NCBI GenBank assembly: GCA_029866215.1
Contig: JARWZU010000066.1
Coordinates: forward strand, 1-64,000
From: Akkermansiaceae bacterium
GTDB taxonomy: Bacteria > Verrucomicrobiota > Verrucomicrobiia > Verrucomicrobiales > Akkermansiaceae
Reading direction: 5' to 3'
DNA length: 64,000 nt
In this document: one piece after another, positions 1 through 62,452 of the stretch
How positions within the stretch are numbered: position 1 is the first letter of the stretch
Layout of the letters: each line of letters opens with the position of its first letter
The notes under the pieces: model-generated
Seen by the model: only the letters and a program-made list of their open reading frames with translations
Database searches by the model: none
What the model was told of the DNA's origin: nothing
Translations under genes and position numbers: made by a program

Positions 1-112
1 ATACCGCGACAGCAAGTTTCTTGTCGGGTGATAGTCCGCCCTTCGTGACGACCCACTCGCCACCAAAGACGTGGCTACTCAGCAAAAGGACCGCAGTGAG
101 GATGTTCCGCAT
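1..112 (-). CDS. Third integron cassette gene (partial), secreted protein
   Basis: The minus-strand reading starts at ATG 112-110 and stays open to the window edge, giving 37 codons. It begins MRNILTAVLLLSSHVFGG, a typical Sec signal peptide (short basic N-region, hydrophobic core, small residues before the likely cleavage site), followed by EWVVTKGGLSPDKK. The start lies about 20 bases after the attC core at 133-140, as expected for a gene-cassette ORF. The rest of the gene lies outside the window and the family is not recognisable. It probably acts in the periplasm or outside the cell. Confidence 0.6.
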   Translation of the reverse strand, partial: MRNILTAVLLLSSHVFGGEWVVTKGGLSPDKKLAVAV

Positions 113-132
113 GGCGAGTGGTGCTGATAGTT

Positions 133-227
133 GGCCGAACGATTCGGATCAGGCGACGGCGAGCGGGAGGCGTCGATGACACGACAGATGCCATACGAGC
201 CGTTGCCTGCATCCGTTTTGTTCGCCC
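133..227 (-). other. attC recombination site of cassette 2
   Basis: Read on the minus strand it starts with R'' GGGCGAAC (227-220) and ends with R' GTTCGGCC (140-133). Between them are inner arms CGGATGCAGGCAACGG and CCGTCGCCTGATCCG, which pair with one unpaired extra G on one side. The unpaired base and outer/inner box order are the hallmark of folded single-stranded attC sites. The site is 95 bases long and begins 9 bases after the stop of the small membrane-protein gene. Confidence 0.85.
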
Positions 228-235
228 TTGGTCGG

Positions 236-508
236 CTATGGATGCTGCTGCTCATAGTGCTTGGCAAGCTGTGGAAGAATCTGCGTCCGGATGATCCATC
301 GAAAGATAAAAAACGATGCAACAGCGCCAAACACAAAACCCGTGATTCCACATGTGATCTGGATGGTTCGGACGTCAATCCCAGCCCCACCGAGAATCGC
401 GCCCAAGATGGCACCCTGAATCGCTCCGATCACCATTCCGGTAATTAAGGCGATGATGGTGTATAGAATGAAGCTCTTCAGGTATCGGATTTCAGGTTCT
501 GTCTGCAT
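236..508 (-). CDS. Small two-helix membrane protein, integron cassette gene
   Basis: A 90-residue protein with a charged N-terminus (MQTEPEIRYLKS). A first hydrophobic helix at about residues 11-42 is rich in glycine (IGAIQGAILGAILGG), and a second lies at about 52-70 (CGITGFVFGAVASFFIF), followed by a basic/polar tail. The Gly/Ala-rich helix resembles glycine-zipper segments of small inner-membrane proteins, but I recognise no family. It fills cassette 2 completely, lying between the TTCGGCCAACTA cassette start and its own attC. Expression would depend on an upstream promoter in or near cassette 1, since no strong promoter is visible. Confidence 0.7.
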   Translation of the reverse strand: MQTEPEIRYLKSFILYTIIALITGMVIGAIQGAILGAILGGAGIDVRTIQITCGITGFVFGAVASFFIFRWIIRTQILPQLAKHYEQQHP

Positions 509-523
509 GGCGTGTTGTTAGTT

Positions 524-651
524 GGCCGAACGTAAAGCACATCCACCACTAGAAGCGGGGGCGGAAGTGGATCGCGGGGTTAGTGTTGTAGTTACGGAAA
601 ATCATGGAAACAGGGCGGCTTCTAGTGGTTGGATGATGCGGCTTGTTAGCC
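524..651 (-). other. attC recombination site of cassette 1
   Basis: On the minus strand: R'' GGCTAAC (651-645), then arm GCATCATCCAACCACTAGAAGC split as GCATCATCC/AACCACTAGAAGC at 637-616, a central spacer, the opposing arm GCTTCTAGTGGTGGATGTGC (556-537) and R' GTTCGGCC (531-524). The arms pair along their length with two extrahelical bases (a T and an A) on one side, as in known attC sites. It begins one base after the stop codon of the lipoprotein gene. Length is 128 bases. Confidence 0.85.
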
Positions 652-652
652 G

Positions 653-1402
653 TTATCGTTGGGGTGCTATGTAGATGGGCGATCGATTATAGGGATTCCC
701 GGCCCCATAAGGATTATTAACGCTATCCGGTGAATACTTATTCCCGTAGCGGCCGTAAGGATTAGAAACTGAGTCTGGATCATACTTATTTGTGCTTAGT
801 CTGCCCAAATACTTCCCGTTGGCGTCGTAGAGTTTTGGAGCATTGGTCGCATAAGGGTTTGTCCACGACTTGTTGCTGTAGCGACTCCCGTATTGGCTGT
901 ATGGATTTATTAGTCCGTCCGCCTTGTAGGGGTTACCAGCACCATATGGATTCGCCAAAGATTTCGGATCGAATTGGCTTCCTGTATATCCTGGAACGTA
1001 AGTGGTCTGTGAATAGCTGGACTTGCGAGCAGAAGTGGTTGACCGTTGGTTGCTCTCCATCATTGCATAGAGCGCAGGCAGCAATCTCTTCTTGTACACC
1101 ATTTGATTGATCGCTCCAGAATTATAGTCGCGAGTCAGTGGCGCAATAAGACTTCCGCGAGCTTCGCGTTCATATTCACGTTGGATCGCTCCAGTGTTGT
1201 AAGGCTTGGTAGGTTCCTCAGGGATTGGCAATAGAGAGATCTTGGTCAGCTCATCGGCATACTGATCTTTAGAGACAAGTCCGACCCGCTTCTGTTCCGC
1301 GAGACGGTATCGCGCCTCCTGCTTCGATGCAACTTTGTTTGTAGCGCACCCGACCAGGGCAAACGCGAGTGCAACCAAGATAGTAGACAAATATGGTTTC
1401 AT
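653..1402 (-). CDS. Repeat-rich lipoprotein, first integron cassette gene
   Basis: A 249-residue lipoprotein. The N-terminus MKPYLSTILVALAFALVGC carries a lipobox with Cys19, so it should be lipidated and probably sit in the outer membrane. Residues about 25-125 are charged and helical (AEQKRVGLVSKDQYADEL). The C-terminal half has repeats built on NPYG/GNPY (SLANPYGAGNPY, DSVSNPYGRYGNKY, DSVNNPYGAGNPY), plus a segment LYDANGKYLGRLS. Comparable NPYG-repeat hypothetical lipoproteins occur in many bacteria (my recollection of the family); their function is unknown. The stop overlaps the cassette 3' end directly before attC. The ATG lies 8 bases from the cassette start with no clear Shine-Dalgarno. 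Confidence 0.85.
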   Translation of the reverse strand: MKPYLSTILVALAFALVGCATNKVASKQEARYRLAEQKRVGLVSKDQYADELTKISLLPIPEEPTKPYNTGAIQREYEREARGSLIAPLTRDYNSGAINQMVYKKRLLPALYAMMESNQRSTTSARKSSYSQTTYVPGYTGSQFDPKSLANPYGAGNPYKADGLINPYSQYGSRYSNKSWTNPYATNAPKLYDANGKYLGRLSTNKYDPDSVSNPYGRYGNKYSPDSVNNPYGAGNPYNRSPIYIAPQR

Positions 1403-1409
1403 TTTTTTA

Positions 1410-1416
1410 GGCTAAC
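1410..1416 (-). other. Core site at the start of cassette 1 (candidate attI side)
   Basis: The minus strand reads GTTAGCC here, 8 bases before the lipoprotein ATG. It is the exact reverse complement of the R'' box GGCTAAC of the attC that ends this cassette, so an excised circular cassette 1 would carry a perfectly paired R''/R' box. This supports 1415 as the cassette boundary and the sequence just above it (about 1416-1500) as the attI side. No other attI features can be identified. Confidence 0.6.
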
Positions 1417-1506
1417 TTGTTGTTTGTCTACAGAACCGGGGGAAAGTGTCGGGCGGCTTAATAGACTCCGGAAGTGAAAGTTTACGTGCGGGATTTTGCA
1501 AGGTTT

Positions 1507-1649
1507 TTCATGTAGGAATTCATGAATATCTGAGCATAAATCGACGGAAATGGAGATTTATGCGCTTATCGGCGTGTTATTCTCCGAAAATGTTCTAGTC
1601 ACAAACCTTCATTTCCGGGGAATAACATGCACATTTGACATGTTATTCT
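1507..1649. repeat. Cluster of four inverted repeats upstream of the intI remnant
   Basis: IR1 is TTCATG/CATGAA (1507-1526). IR2 is GCATAAATC/GATTTATGC (1534-1563). IR3 pairs 1575-1592 with 1610-1627 (18-bp arms, two G-T-compatible mismatches, 17-base loop). IR4 is AATAACATG/CATGTTATT (1621-1647) and shares the middle arm with IR3. The motif TGTTATTC therefore occurs three times in alternating orientation just before the intI start. These could be operators, a REP-like insertion or structured mRNA leader; no known regulator site is recognised. Confidence 0.7.
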
Positions 1650-1662
1650 GCAGACTGGGCCT

Positions 1663-1803
1663 ATGAAACTGATAGAACGGATTCGGCAGGTGCTTCGTCT
1701 CAAGCAATACCGCTTGGGGACGGAGGAGAGCTACGTGGGGCGGTATCGGCAATTTGTGTAGTTTCACGAGTTGCGCCATCCGGGGAAAATGGGGGCGGCG
1801 GAG
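1663..1803 (+). pseudogene. intI: Integron integrase (tyrosine recombinase) N-terminal remnant
   Basis: From ATG 1663 the frame reads MKLIERIRQVLRL, KQYRLGTEESYVGRYRQFV, stop (TAG 1759-1761), then in the same frame FHELRHPGKMGAAE. This matches the N-terminal SAM-like core-binding region of IntI/XerC-type recombinases (pattern: R..LR...Y...TE..Y..W...F..FH..RHP..MG..E). Homology is lost at about 1803, where a 22-bp tandem repeat begins, so the catalytic domain (R..HRH..Y) is missing. One in-frame stop plus truncation make it non-functional. Its divergence from the attC array identifies it as intI rather than another recombinase. Confidence 0.8.
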
Positions 1804-2019
1804 TCGCACCCCGCAACCACACCGATTCACCCCCGCAACCACGCCGATTCACCCCCGCAACCACGCCGATTGACTACCGCATTGGCACCGATTCACCCCC
1901 GCATTGGCGCCAATTCACACCCGCATTGGCACCAATTCACTACCACATTGGCACCGATTCACTACCGCAACCGCACCGATTCACCCCCGCACTGGCGTGG
2001 TTTTCCTCCCGCAGGCGTA
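1800..2019. repeat. 22-bp imperfect tandem repeat array
   Basis: Units of the type CCGATTCACCCCCGCAACCA start at 1822, 1844, 1866, 1888, 1910, 1932, 1954 and 1976, exactly 22 bp apart. A degenerate unit lies on each side (from 1800 and 1998). The variable part is the last third (AACCACG versus ATTGGCA). There are no spacers, so it is a minisatellite, not CRISPR. The period is not a multiple of three, arguing against a coding repeat. It begins at the exact point where integrase homology ends. Confidence 0.9.
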
Positions 2020-2093: not shown

Positions 2094-2216
2094 ATGATGG
2101 CCGAGACCGATTGCATCATCCAAGGCAGCGCCGGATTTTCCGGCCAGCTCATCGCCACCAAGAAGGCAATCGTCGCCTGGTCACGCTTGATCGATCCTGC
2201 CCTGCCACGCCACTGA
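2094..2216 (+). CDS. Possible 40-residue small ORF
   Basis: ATG ATG at 2094 opens a 40-codon frame beginning MMAETDCIIQGSAGFSG and ending at TGA 2214-2216. It lies between the tandem repeat and the 3' end of the PstS-like gene on the other strand. There is an A-rich stretch before the start but no Shine-Dalgarno, no recognised domain and no membrane segment. It could be a fragment of a gene lost with the integrase, or chance. Otherwise the 1804-2254 gap holds only the repeat. Confidence 0.2.
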   Translation: MMAETDCIIQGSAGFSGQLIATKKAIVAWSRLIDPALPRH

Positions 2217-2254
2217 GCAGCCAGCTCCGATCAAAGGACGAGCCCTCTGTTTGC

Positions 2255-14779: not shown

Positions 14780-15718
14780 TTATTTAATATGATTTTTCTT
14801 CAACGAACGAAAATAATAATTCCTCGGCAAGTTCGATTCAACCGCAAGCCTTTTTAGCCTCGCGATCTGAACCCGATAGCTCATCTCCCATTCTGAGCAA
14901 CCTTCAATAGGCCCTCTAAACATCATCATCAACCGCTGACGAAATCGTAACTTTATCGAAACCACGACCGCTCGAATCCTTGGAAAAACGACTGGTGCAT
15001 GCTCCCAGTGGTACATGATGTACGCAGAGGTCTCCCCAAACCGATTAGCAGCTAACAACCAGTCCGCACGCAACAGTCTCACGACATCTGGGTAGTGAAC
15101 CACAAATGTATCACCCACAGGAGAAATGAGTAGCCCAGCCTCCTCGATCTGCATTCCCAACAATGTCTCCTCACCGAATCCGGATGCGCCAGGCCCTAAG
15201 GCTTCATCAAAACCCCCGATCACTTCAAACACAGAGCTGTGAACACCCATACTCGCCCCAACAAGGGCAGTCTTACCGTCAGCCGGATCGAGGACCTCCG
15301 CCAACCAAGTCCGATGCATCAACCCAAACCATGATCTCACAAGATGAGGAGCCAGCTTGATACGACCTGCCACAGCCGCACAACGCCCTTCAAACAGCGG
15401 CTCCGCCATCCGCTCAAGCCATGACTCAGCAGGCTCAACGTCGTCATCGGTAAACAATAGTACCCGCCCCCTCGCCTTGGCTACGGCAGCGTTCAATGCA
15501 CGACTCTTTCCTGGCAGTGGCACATGCAAGTATTGAATACGAATCCGATCAAGCTTCGTCACCCGCACAACTTCCGCAGCACCTCCAAACGCATCGTTGT
15601 CAGCCAAGATCATCTCGACCTCCCACTCCCCTGGAACCCTCACCAACGCAAACGCTCGCAAAGTCTCTCGCAGCCTCTCCAACCGCCCGCGTGTACAAAT
15701 GATGACAGAACAATCCAT
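14780..15718 (-). CDS. Family 2 glycosyltransferase
   Basis: From ATG 15718 the protein has 312 residues and begins MDCSVIICTRGRLERL, the classical GT-A fold start. An upstream in-frame start would add 64 residues that do not match the family and would overlap the previous gene. Donor-site features are ILADNDAFGG and the DXD motif FTDDDVEP; LVGASMGVHSSVFEVIGGFDE and GFGEETLLGMQIEEAG form the acceptor side. The single-base gap to the upstream glycosyltransferase gene implies co-translation. The transferred sugar cannot be told. Confidence 0.85.
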   Translation of the reverse strand: MDCSVIICTRGRLERLRETLRAFALVRVPGEWEVEMILADNDAFGGAAEVVRVTKLDRIRIQYLHVPLPGKSRALNAAVAKARGRVLLFTDDDVEPAESWLERMAEPLFEGRCAAVAGRIKLAPHLVRSWFGLMHRTWLAEVLDPADGKTALVGASMGVHSSVFEVIGGFDEALGPGASGFGEETLLGMQIEEAGLLISPVGDTFVVHYPDVVRLLRADWLLAANRFGETSAYIMYHWEHAPVVFPRIRAVVVSIKLRFRQRLMMMFRGPIEGCSEWEMSYRVQIARLKRLAVESNLPRNYYFRSLKKNHIK

Positions 15719-15719
15719 A

Positions 15720-16922
15720 TCATCGACCTTCAAGATCGTCGGGCATTCCGCTGATGACCTCCACCATCTCGGCCAGACACGACGAATTAGCAGCCCAAGT
15801 CCAATTGCATTTGAATCGATCCCACGCAAGGCCAGCAAGTTGATCGCCAAATGCGTGATCCTCCAAAACCCTTTGACATGCTCCCTCGAAATCAACGACG
15901 GAATCTGCAATCAAAACCTCATTCCCATTAGTAACGTCGTATCCATAAACCCCCAACTGGGTAGAAACAACCGGACATTTTCGACTAAAAGCAGTGCTAA
16001 CTTTTATACGGGTACCCCCACCCTCAAAGATAGGGACAATCGTCAATGCCCATGTAGCAATCTCATCATCCAATTCGGGAATCCAACCAAGCCCATCCAC
16101 ATTTCTGCAATTCACCCATTCCGGAGAGTCACTATACTTCCCCACAATCCTTAAAGTTAACTCTGGGAAGGATGCAACCAGTCGGGGCCAGACGTAACGC
16201 AAAAACCAGCGCATGCCACTTGCGTTGGGACCGTATTCAAGCGAACCCACAAACCCAATGCGAAGTGGCAAAAATTGCCTGCGCACCGGAACCACGCTCG
16301 GCACATCACACCCATTAGATACCACGTAAACGTTCCCCTCACCACTAAATCGTGCTCGATCCGCAGCGCTACAGACCGCAAGCCCGTCAAACCTTTCACA
16401 AAGCCGCCGCTCATGCCGACGCCAAATCATGTACTGCCGGAACGCCCGAAACCGCCGCACAAACCCATCTGAATTTGCAATTTCATTCCAAGCGACCTCG
16501 CTGGGAATATCATCAATGTCGAGAATCGTCTTTGGCCACCTCCATAGATTAAAGCCATTGGCAACCCGCAATCCATGAACCCAAACCAAATCATACGCAT
16601 TTATTAGCGACTTCAACTCAACCTGATCCTCCGCGCTAGCACTCACCCTGTGGGTATTCAAGTCGTCGGAACCAACCTCAAATTTGATACGACCGAGCAT
16701 ACTCCTGATCGGCCACGGCCAAAATTCAAAAACACGAATTGGCAAAAAATCTTCAGCCGTAGCATTCTCTTGATGCCCATATGCCTCATATGCCCCTGCT
16801 AAAACTAAATGGACATCACCAAACCTGCGAAGCTGCACCATCAATTTTCTCGCACGTAAACGTGCACCATGGTCGGGCCCACAAGGAGCGTGAGAGGTAA
16901 TAAACAAGATCTTCATCAGCAA
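15720..16922 (-). CDS. Family 4 (GT-B) glycosyltransferase
   Basis: A 400-residue GT-B protein. The N-terminal Rossmann half starts MLMKILFITSHAPCGPDHGARLR. The C-terminal half carries LRIGFVGSLEYGPNASGMRWFL, LRIVGKYSDSPEW, VDGLGWIPELDDEIATWALTIVP and the nucleotide-sugar site PIFEGGGTRIKVSTAFSRKCPVVST, as in retaining GT4 enzymes that transfer after long-range assembly. It sits in a run of minus-strand transferase genes in the polysaccharide cluster. The donor sugar is unknown. The ATG at 16922 or 16916 could be used. Confidence 0.85.
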   Translation of the reverse strand: MLMKILFITSHAPCGPDHGARLRARKLMVQLRRFGDVHLVLAGAYEAYGHQENATAEDFLPIRVFEFWPWPIRSMLGRIKFEVGSDDLNTHRVSASAEDQVELKSLINAYDLVWVHGLRVANGFNLWRWPKTILDIDDIPSEVAWNEIANSDGFVRRFRAFRQYMIWRRHERRLCERFDGLAVCSAADRARFSGEGNVYVVSNGCDVPSVVPVRRQFLPLRIGFVGSLEYGPNASGMRWFLRYVWPRLVASFPELTLRIVGKYSDSPEWVNCRNVDGLGWIPELDDEIATWALTIVPIFEGGGTRIKVSTAFSRKCPVVSTQLGVYGYDVTNGNEVLIADSVVDFEGACQRVLEDHAFGDQLAGLAWDRFKCNWTWAANSSCLAEMVEVISGMPDDLEGR

Positions 16923-62284: not shown

Positions 62285-62452
62285 CCTCCGTAATCGACAC
62301 TTAAGCCTCCGTAATCGACGCTTAAGCCTCCGTAACCGCCACTTAAGCCTCCGCAATCGGCACTTAAGCCTCCTTAATCGACACTTAAGCCTCCGTAATC
62401 GACACTTAAGCCTCCGTAATCGACACTTAAGCCTCCGTAACGACCGGCCAAT
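62285..62452. repeat. 21-bp tandem repeat array
   Basis: Eight units of CCTCCGTAATCGACACTTAA plus G start every 21 bp at 62285, 62306, 62327, 62348, 62369, 62390, 62411 and 62432 (last one partial), with a few substitutions (for example CGCCACT, CGGCACT). There are no unique spacers. The period is a multiple of three, so both strands stay open and encode 7-residue repeats (R-L-K/C-R-L-R on one strand), but these lack a credible start or signals and are not annotated as a gene. Confidence 0.9.

Follow-up and report, generated by a model that had tools for sequence, protein, structure and literature searches.

Chromosomal integrons commonly lose intI, and such a loss is usually taken as the end of the array's life. 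Clusters of attC sites that have no complete intI nearby (CALINs) usually have no attI head either, a trait that lies outside their formal definition. Mobilisation in trans is said to be possible for CALINs (PMC12444791, PMC9668308), and integrons are already known in Verrucomicrobiota (PMC8618304). In Xanthomonas, one intI lesion usually goes with one array (PMC12444791), and class 2 integrons with a truncated intI2 have arrays that seldom vary (PMC8876359).

The window analysed here (64,000 bases; bases 1-64000 of contig C3 in a 3.03 Mb genome of 88 contigs, 97% complete) carries an integron at its left end, where position 1 is the contig end and no biological border. As in the sedentary chromosomal integrons of Vibrio and Xanthomonas, intI is divergent from attI and the array, the attCs of the genome are closely related and the cassettes are of unknown function. 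Unlike them, this integron has its intI dead in cis, and the genome has several attI heads, two of which are copies of one dead head. In the class 2 integron, where intI2 has a TAA at codon 179, a stop codon likewise kills the integrase and leaves attI and cassettes in place, but the array rarely varies there, whereas here it differs between species with a common lesion. The inactivated intI genes of Xanthomonas are also chromosomal, sit on an ancestral platform and carry stop codons or deletions; the rule of one array per lesion that is usual for them (PMC12444791) does not extend to the present case. Finally, with at least two attCs (10 on contigs C3 and C6) and no complete intI nearby, the array is a CALIN by definition, and to that extent the sequence-only reading was right in calling it CALIN-like. 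Its retained attI sets it apart from an ordinary CALIN: the attI core (1414-1435) and the start of intI are still there, so that incoming cassettes could be inserted at a true attI and not at attC alone. It is unusual to find dead heads in duplicate with attI preserved, a single conserved and live IntI, and different arrays behind a common lesion, all together.

With a probability of about 0.68, we regard the window locus as a platform whose own integrase is dead, whose attI and array have been kept, and on which an IntI encoded elsewhere, most likely on contig C86, still acts in trans. The local intI is dead, with a TAG at codon 33 and everything past codon 47 lost, and attI and the attCs would remain usable. 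IntI made from C86 would then recombine the attI and attCs of the dead platform in trans. We infer the identity of the enzyme, its action on the attI of C3 and the ongoing exchange alike.

The dead gene is represented by its first 47 codons on the plus strand (1663-1803); the remainder is missing. The translation reads MKLIERIRQVLRLKQYRLGTEESYVGRYRQFV*FHELRHPGKMGAAE, with the in-frame TAG of codon 33 at 1759-1761. The N-terminus, and only this part, matches the integron-integrase models NF011946 (E 1.2e-7) and TIGR02249 (E 2.4e-6), as well as a SAM-like N-terminal domain. With the complete C86 IntI the remnant shares 62% identity (E 4e-17); against the remaining tyrosine recombinases of the fetched contigs its matches are at chance level (E>=4). 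The intI remnant with its TAG, described from the letters alone, is thus real, and this comparison came out for an integron origin and against a better fit to a recombinase of the XerC type. Likewise, the integrase was said to be cut off at a tandem repeat, and its homology does end at about 1803, shortly before a degenerate 22-bp repeat at 1809-1991 (assigned to no strand). The unit of this repeat recurs at the right end of contig C19. Degenerate 21-22-bp tandem repeats with differing units are seen at integron ends and elsewhere (L062 right end; L042 ~1360-1710; L060 1-150; L064 440-705; window 62285-62444), and the unit found on C86 is dispersed over at least 5 contigs of the sister species G135. 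No complete intI is present on C3, and the head lacks the functional intI in cis that belongs to a complete integron.

On the other side of the remnant lies a minus-strand region (1414-1662) that comprises attI and the intI/cassette control region and is homologous in C48, C86, G135:C240 and G160. It includes the attI core (1414-1435, minus strand), and the cassettes join it at 1410-1416 (GTTAGCC on the minus strand), exactly where homology among the five heads begins. In this way attI lies next to intI and cassettes are joined at the G^TT point, as expected of an integron. The attI and its exact junction add to the sequence-only reading, which did not name an attI. The core, AACTTGTTNTT..CTAC, occurs at four sites in the genome (C3, C48, C86 and C38). 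Between C86 and C3, attI is 77% identical over its first 39 nt, where the head is most conserved; this moderate likeness counts against service by the C86 enzyme. A sigma-70 scan of the head gave one 9/12 match at 1430-1401 on the minus strand, with 2 sites against 0.6 (sd 0.8) expected, and we give it no weight. Inverted repeats, with arms GCAGATTTACGCGC..GCGCGTAAATCTGC and GAATAACATG..CATGTTATTC, are found just upstream of intI on C86 (L042:2921-2954) and in the window (1620-1648); they are possible candidates for regulator sites.

The array begins with two complete cassette ORFs, both on the minus strand and divergent from the plus-strand intI, as had been noticed. Cassette 1 (653-1402) encodes 249 aa with a lipoprotein-like N-terminus and repeated NPYG motifs and belongs to no Pfam family; cassette 2 (236-508) encodes a small membrane protein of 90 aa in which DUF6861 is below cut-off. 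The third ORF (1-140, minus strand) runs off position 1 and is completed on contig C6 as a 205-aa protein with a signal-like N-terminus. Each complete ORF is followed by an attC on its own strand: 525-651 (127 bp) for cassette 1 and 134-226 (93 bp) for cassette 2. The second of these resembles one attC of C86 (87%) and one of C6 (84%). Both have extra bases on the 5' arm. Such extra bases are usual for integron attCs. The two palindromes had been taken for attC-like sites pending a covariance search, and they passed it. A covariance model (R2) built from 16 attCs, without the two window sites and their close copies, picked out exactly these two among the 64 kb of the window, at E 5.5e-24 and 2.2e-4 and ahead of a next match at E 0.69, and a genome-wide search with model R1 gave E 2.6e-25 for the first. 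Moreover, 20 attCs from this genome and its relatives share one consensus fold, with 87.5% of cells paired, a covariation score of 0.411 (0.122 after shuffling) and 14 pairs changed on both sides. Folded attCs thus stand at the cassette ends and are oriented away from attI, as they are in integrons. A genome-wide search at E<=0.05 gives 41 attCs, and searching the fetched loci raises the number to about 46, on contigs C3, C6, C39, C86, C84, C48, C59, C13, C38, C19, C73 and C24. Rfam gave zero matches across the window. The verrucomicrobial host suggested earlier agrees with the labels, Akkermansiaceae and Akkermansia sp., of two relatives with the same attI.

Extension past position 1 shows how far the array goes. 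Bases 1-141 of the window repeat the final 141 bases (right end) of C6 without a difference, an exact overlap that probably stems from a de Bruijn assembly with k=141. C6 adds 8 attCs, which brings the array to 10 or more cassettes with lengths of about 390-1305 bp. The ORFs are mostly small, with signal-like or membrane N-termini as judged by eye, and Pfam found no family above cut-off in the cassettes, with one weak PQQ-like repeat. Cassettes resembling toxin-antitoxin genes, also named by eye, are a HigBA-like pair in G135 (L048:11240-11860) and a ParE-like gene with a partner on C59 (L064:2840-3340).

Four contig ends fall inside arrays: the one shared by C3 (left) and C6 (right), C6-left, C39-right and C84-right. 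Each of them, window position 141 included, is at most 4 nt away from a cassette crossover. Read in the direction of the array, the 141-mers at these ends start with C|GTTCGGC (C3/C6) and AC|GTTCGCT (C84) and end with CGTTC (C6) and CGTTCG (C39). The left end of C59 lies in an internal duplication and was left out of this count. For cassettes of ~720 bp we estimate the chance of a random end falling so close at about 0.0125, and that of four out of four at about 2e-8. Read simply, the assembled DNA contains the same cassettes beside different neighbours, the window array included. A strain mixture or an old duplication could instead provide the two contexts of one cassette.

We considered whether the window's array has its distal end on C59. 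An intact rhodanese gene stands behind the last attC of this contig, and 55 bp from the 3' end of that gene are repeated beside the window integron (2169-2223, plus strand); against this link, non-cassette DNA is present on C59 and its left end is the internal duplication. The intact gene is directly past the last attC (L064:4361-4500). The 55-bp copy marks a rearrangement that joined the integron to the neighbouring chromosome.

A search of the genome for a complete intI, which had been proposed from the sequence, yields two. The C86 gene encodes 317 aa (396 bits to TIGR02249). Aligned with the Vibrio integron integrase of known structure (2a3v), it matches over the full length and retains the catalytic R, K, HxxR, H and Y. 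Compared with its homologue in G160 it has a dN/dS of 0.067 and is under strong purifying selection. A complete conserved IntI and a matching attI, as action in trans would demand, are therefore present in the same genome. The second gene, on C84 (L043:2037-3431; 464 aa, 331 bits), has about 110 extra residues ahead of its SAM-like domain (115-186). Open frames of 410-500 aa recur among the IntI matches of the family, and the long form on C84 looks like a separate IntI type. Its head has no attI core of the type found on C3, C48, C86 and C38.

Two further heads have attI but no intact intI of their own. The head on C48 duplicates that of C3 (90% identity) down to the TAG, but has different cassettes. 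Direct repeats, 92% identical over 311 bp (L040:11385-11695 and 15640-15950) and representing the tail of a large gene, flank the C48 integron; they suggest a route by which the dead head was transferred or duplicated. C38 (L060:1-540) is 87% like C86 on either flank of intI, with 1.06 kb containing intI and its promoter cleanly deleted and with attI and two attC-bearing cassettes kept. A decayed intI with an in-frame TAG beside 60-bp attCs is also seen in a third species of the genus (L051; G141:C5:205739-206113).

In G135, a DNA search finds no integron in the neighbourhood orthologous to that of C3; rhodanese and sulfatase genes occupy the site instead. Therefore C3 cannot be compared there, and the argument between species uses the C48 copy. 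Its orthologue is G135:C240, with a left flank 93% identical over 3.4 kb, a head 91% identical over 662 bp and a right flank 90% identical over 1.2 kb plus 94% over 0.4 kb. The two loci share the TAG and are both truncated after codon ~36, and their homology breaks off exactly at the attI crossover. At attI, C48 has an HNH-type cassette, and G135 has a small membrane protein followed by the HigBA-like pair (by eye). The three dead heads are about equally distant from one another (9.5-10.6% over 347 bp). Against action in trans, the G135 assembly shows no complete C86-type IntI, and only a frameshifted long-type intI is seen in it. Since the lesion comes from the common ancestor and the cassettes differ, at least one site-specific exchange at attI postdates the lesion. 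Together with the assembly break points, these array differences indicate that cassettes moved after the death of intI. Thus, of the earlier description of the locus as a relic, the dead intI in cis stands, and immobility, if meant by the word, is not supported.

Frozen arrays are nonetheless the usual outcome of intI loss: the same lesion goes with mostly identical arrays in Xanthomonas (PMC12444791), and class 2 integrons with truncated intI2 vary seldom (PMC8876359). The array might accordingly have been built under a live intI and stayed unchanged since, the differences between C48 and G135 going back to polymorphism or deletion before or around the decay. We consider this unlikely, since C48 and G135 inherited one lesion (the TAG, the truncation and the synteny are shared) and yet have different cassettes exactly at attI, and the assembly break points fall on cassette crossovers, with the window array among them. 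Homologous recombination by RecA between the duplicated heads or between similar attCs would explain changes without any integrase. The C3 and C48 heads, ~89-90% identical over 347 bp, could swap arrays in this way, and several attCs are 87-93% identical between loci. However, a crossover in the head would swap whole chromosome arms, and synteny holds on both sides of G135 and C48; the branch points, moreover, lie 1-4 nt from the G^TT crossover and not anywhere across the attC homology. RecA is for these reasons a still poorer candidate. Activity in trans from the long-type IntI of C84, a complete enzyme (331 bits) with its own array and attCs of the same family as the window's, is very improbable, given a head that lacks the attI core of the other loci and an intI remnant that matches this IntI at chance level only.

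The reading of the window locus as a dead platform served by the C86 enzyme can be carried one step further. The genome might contain a distributed integron, in which one live integrase works on several scattered attI platforms (C86, C3, C48 and C38), and the three platforms without an intI of their own still gain, lose and reorder cassettes. We put forward this wider proposal, taken as a whole, tentatively and at somewhat less than even odds. If one integrase keeps orphan attI platforms active, intI pseudogenes would be poor guides to the death of an array. If true, the cost of carrying an integrase would also be uncoupled from the benefit of many arrays. The species pair with one lesion and different cassettes makes the idea directly testable.
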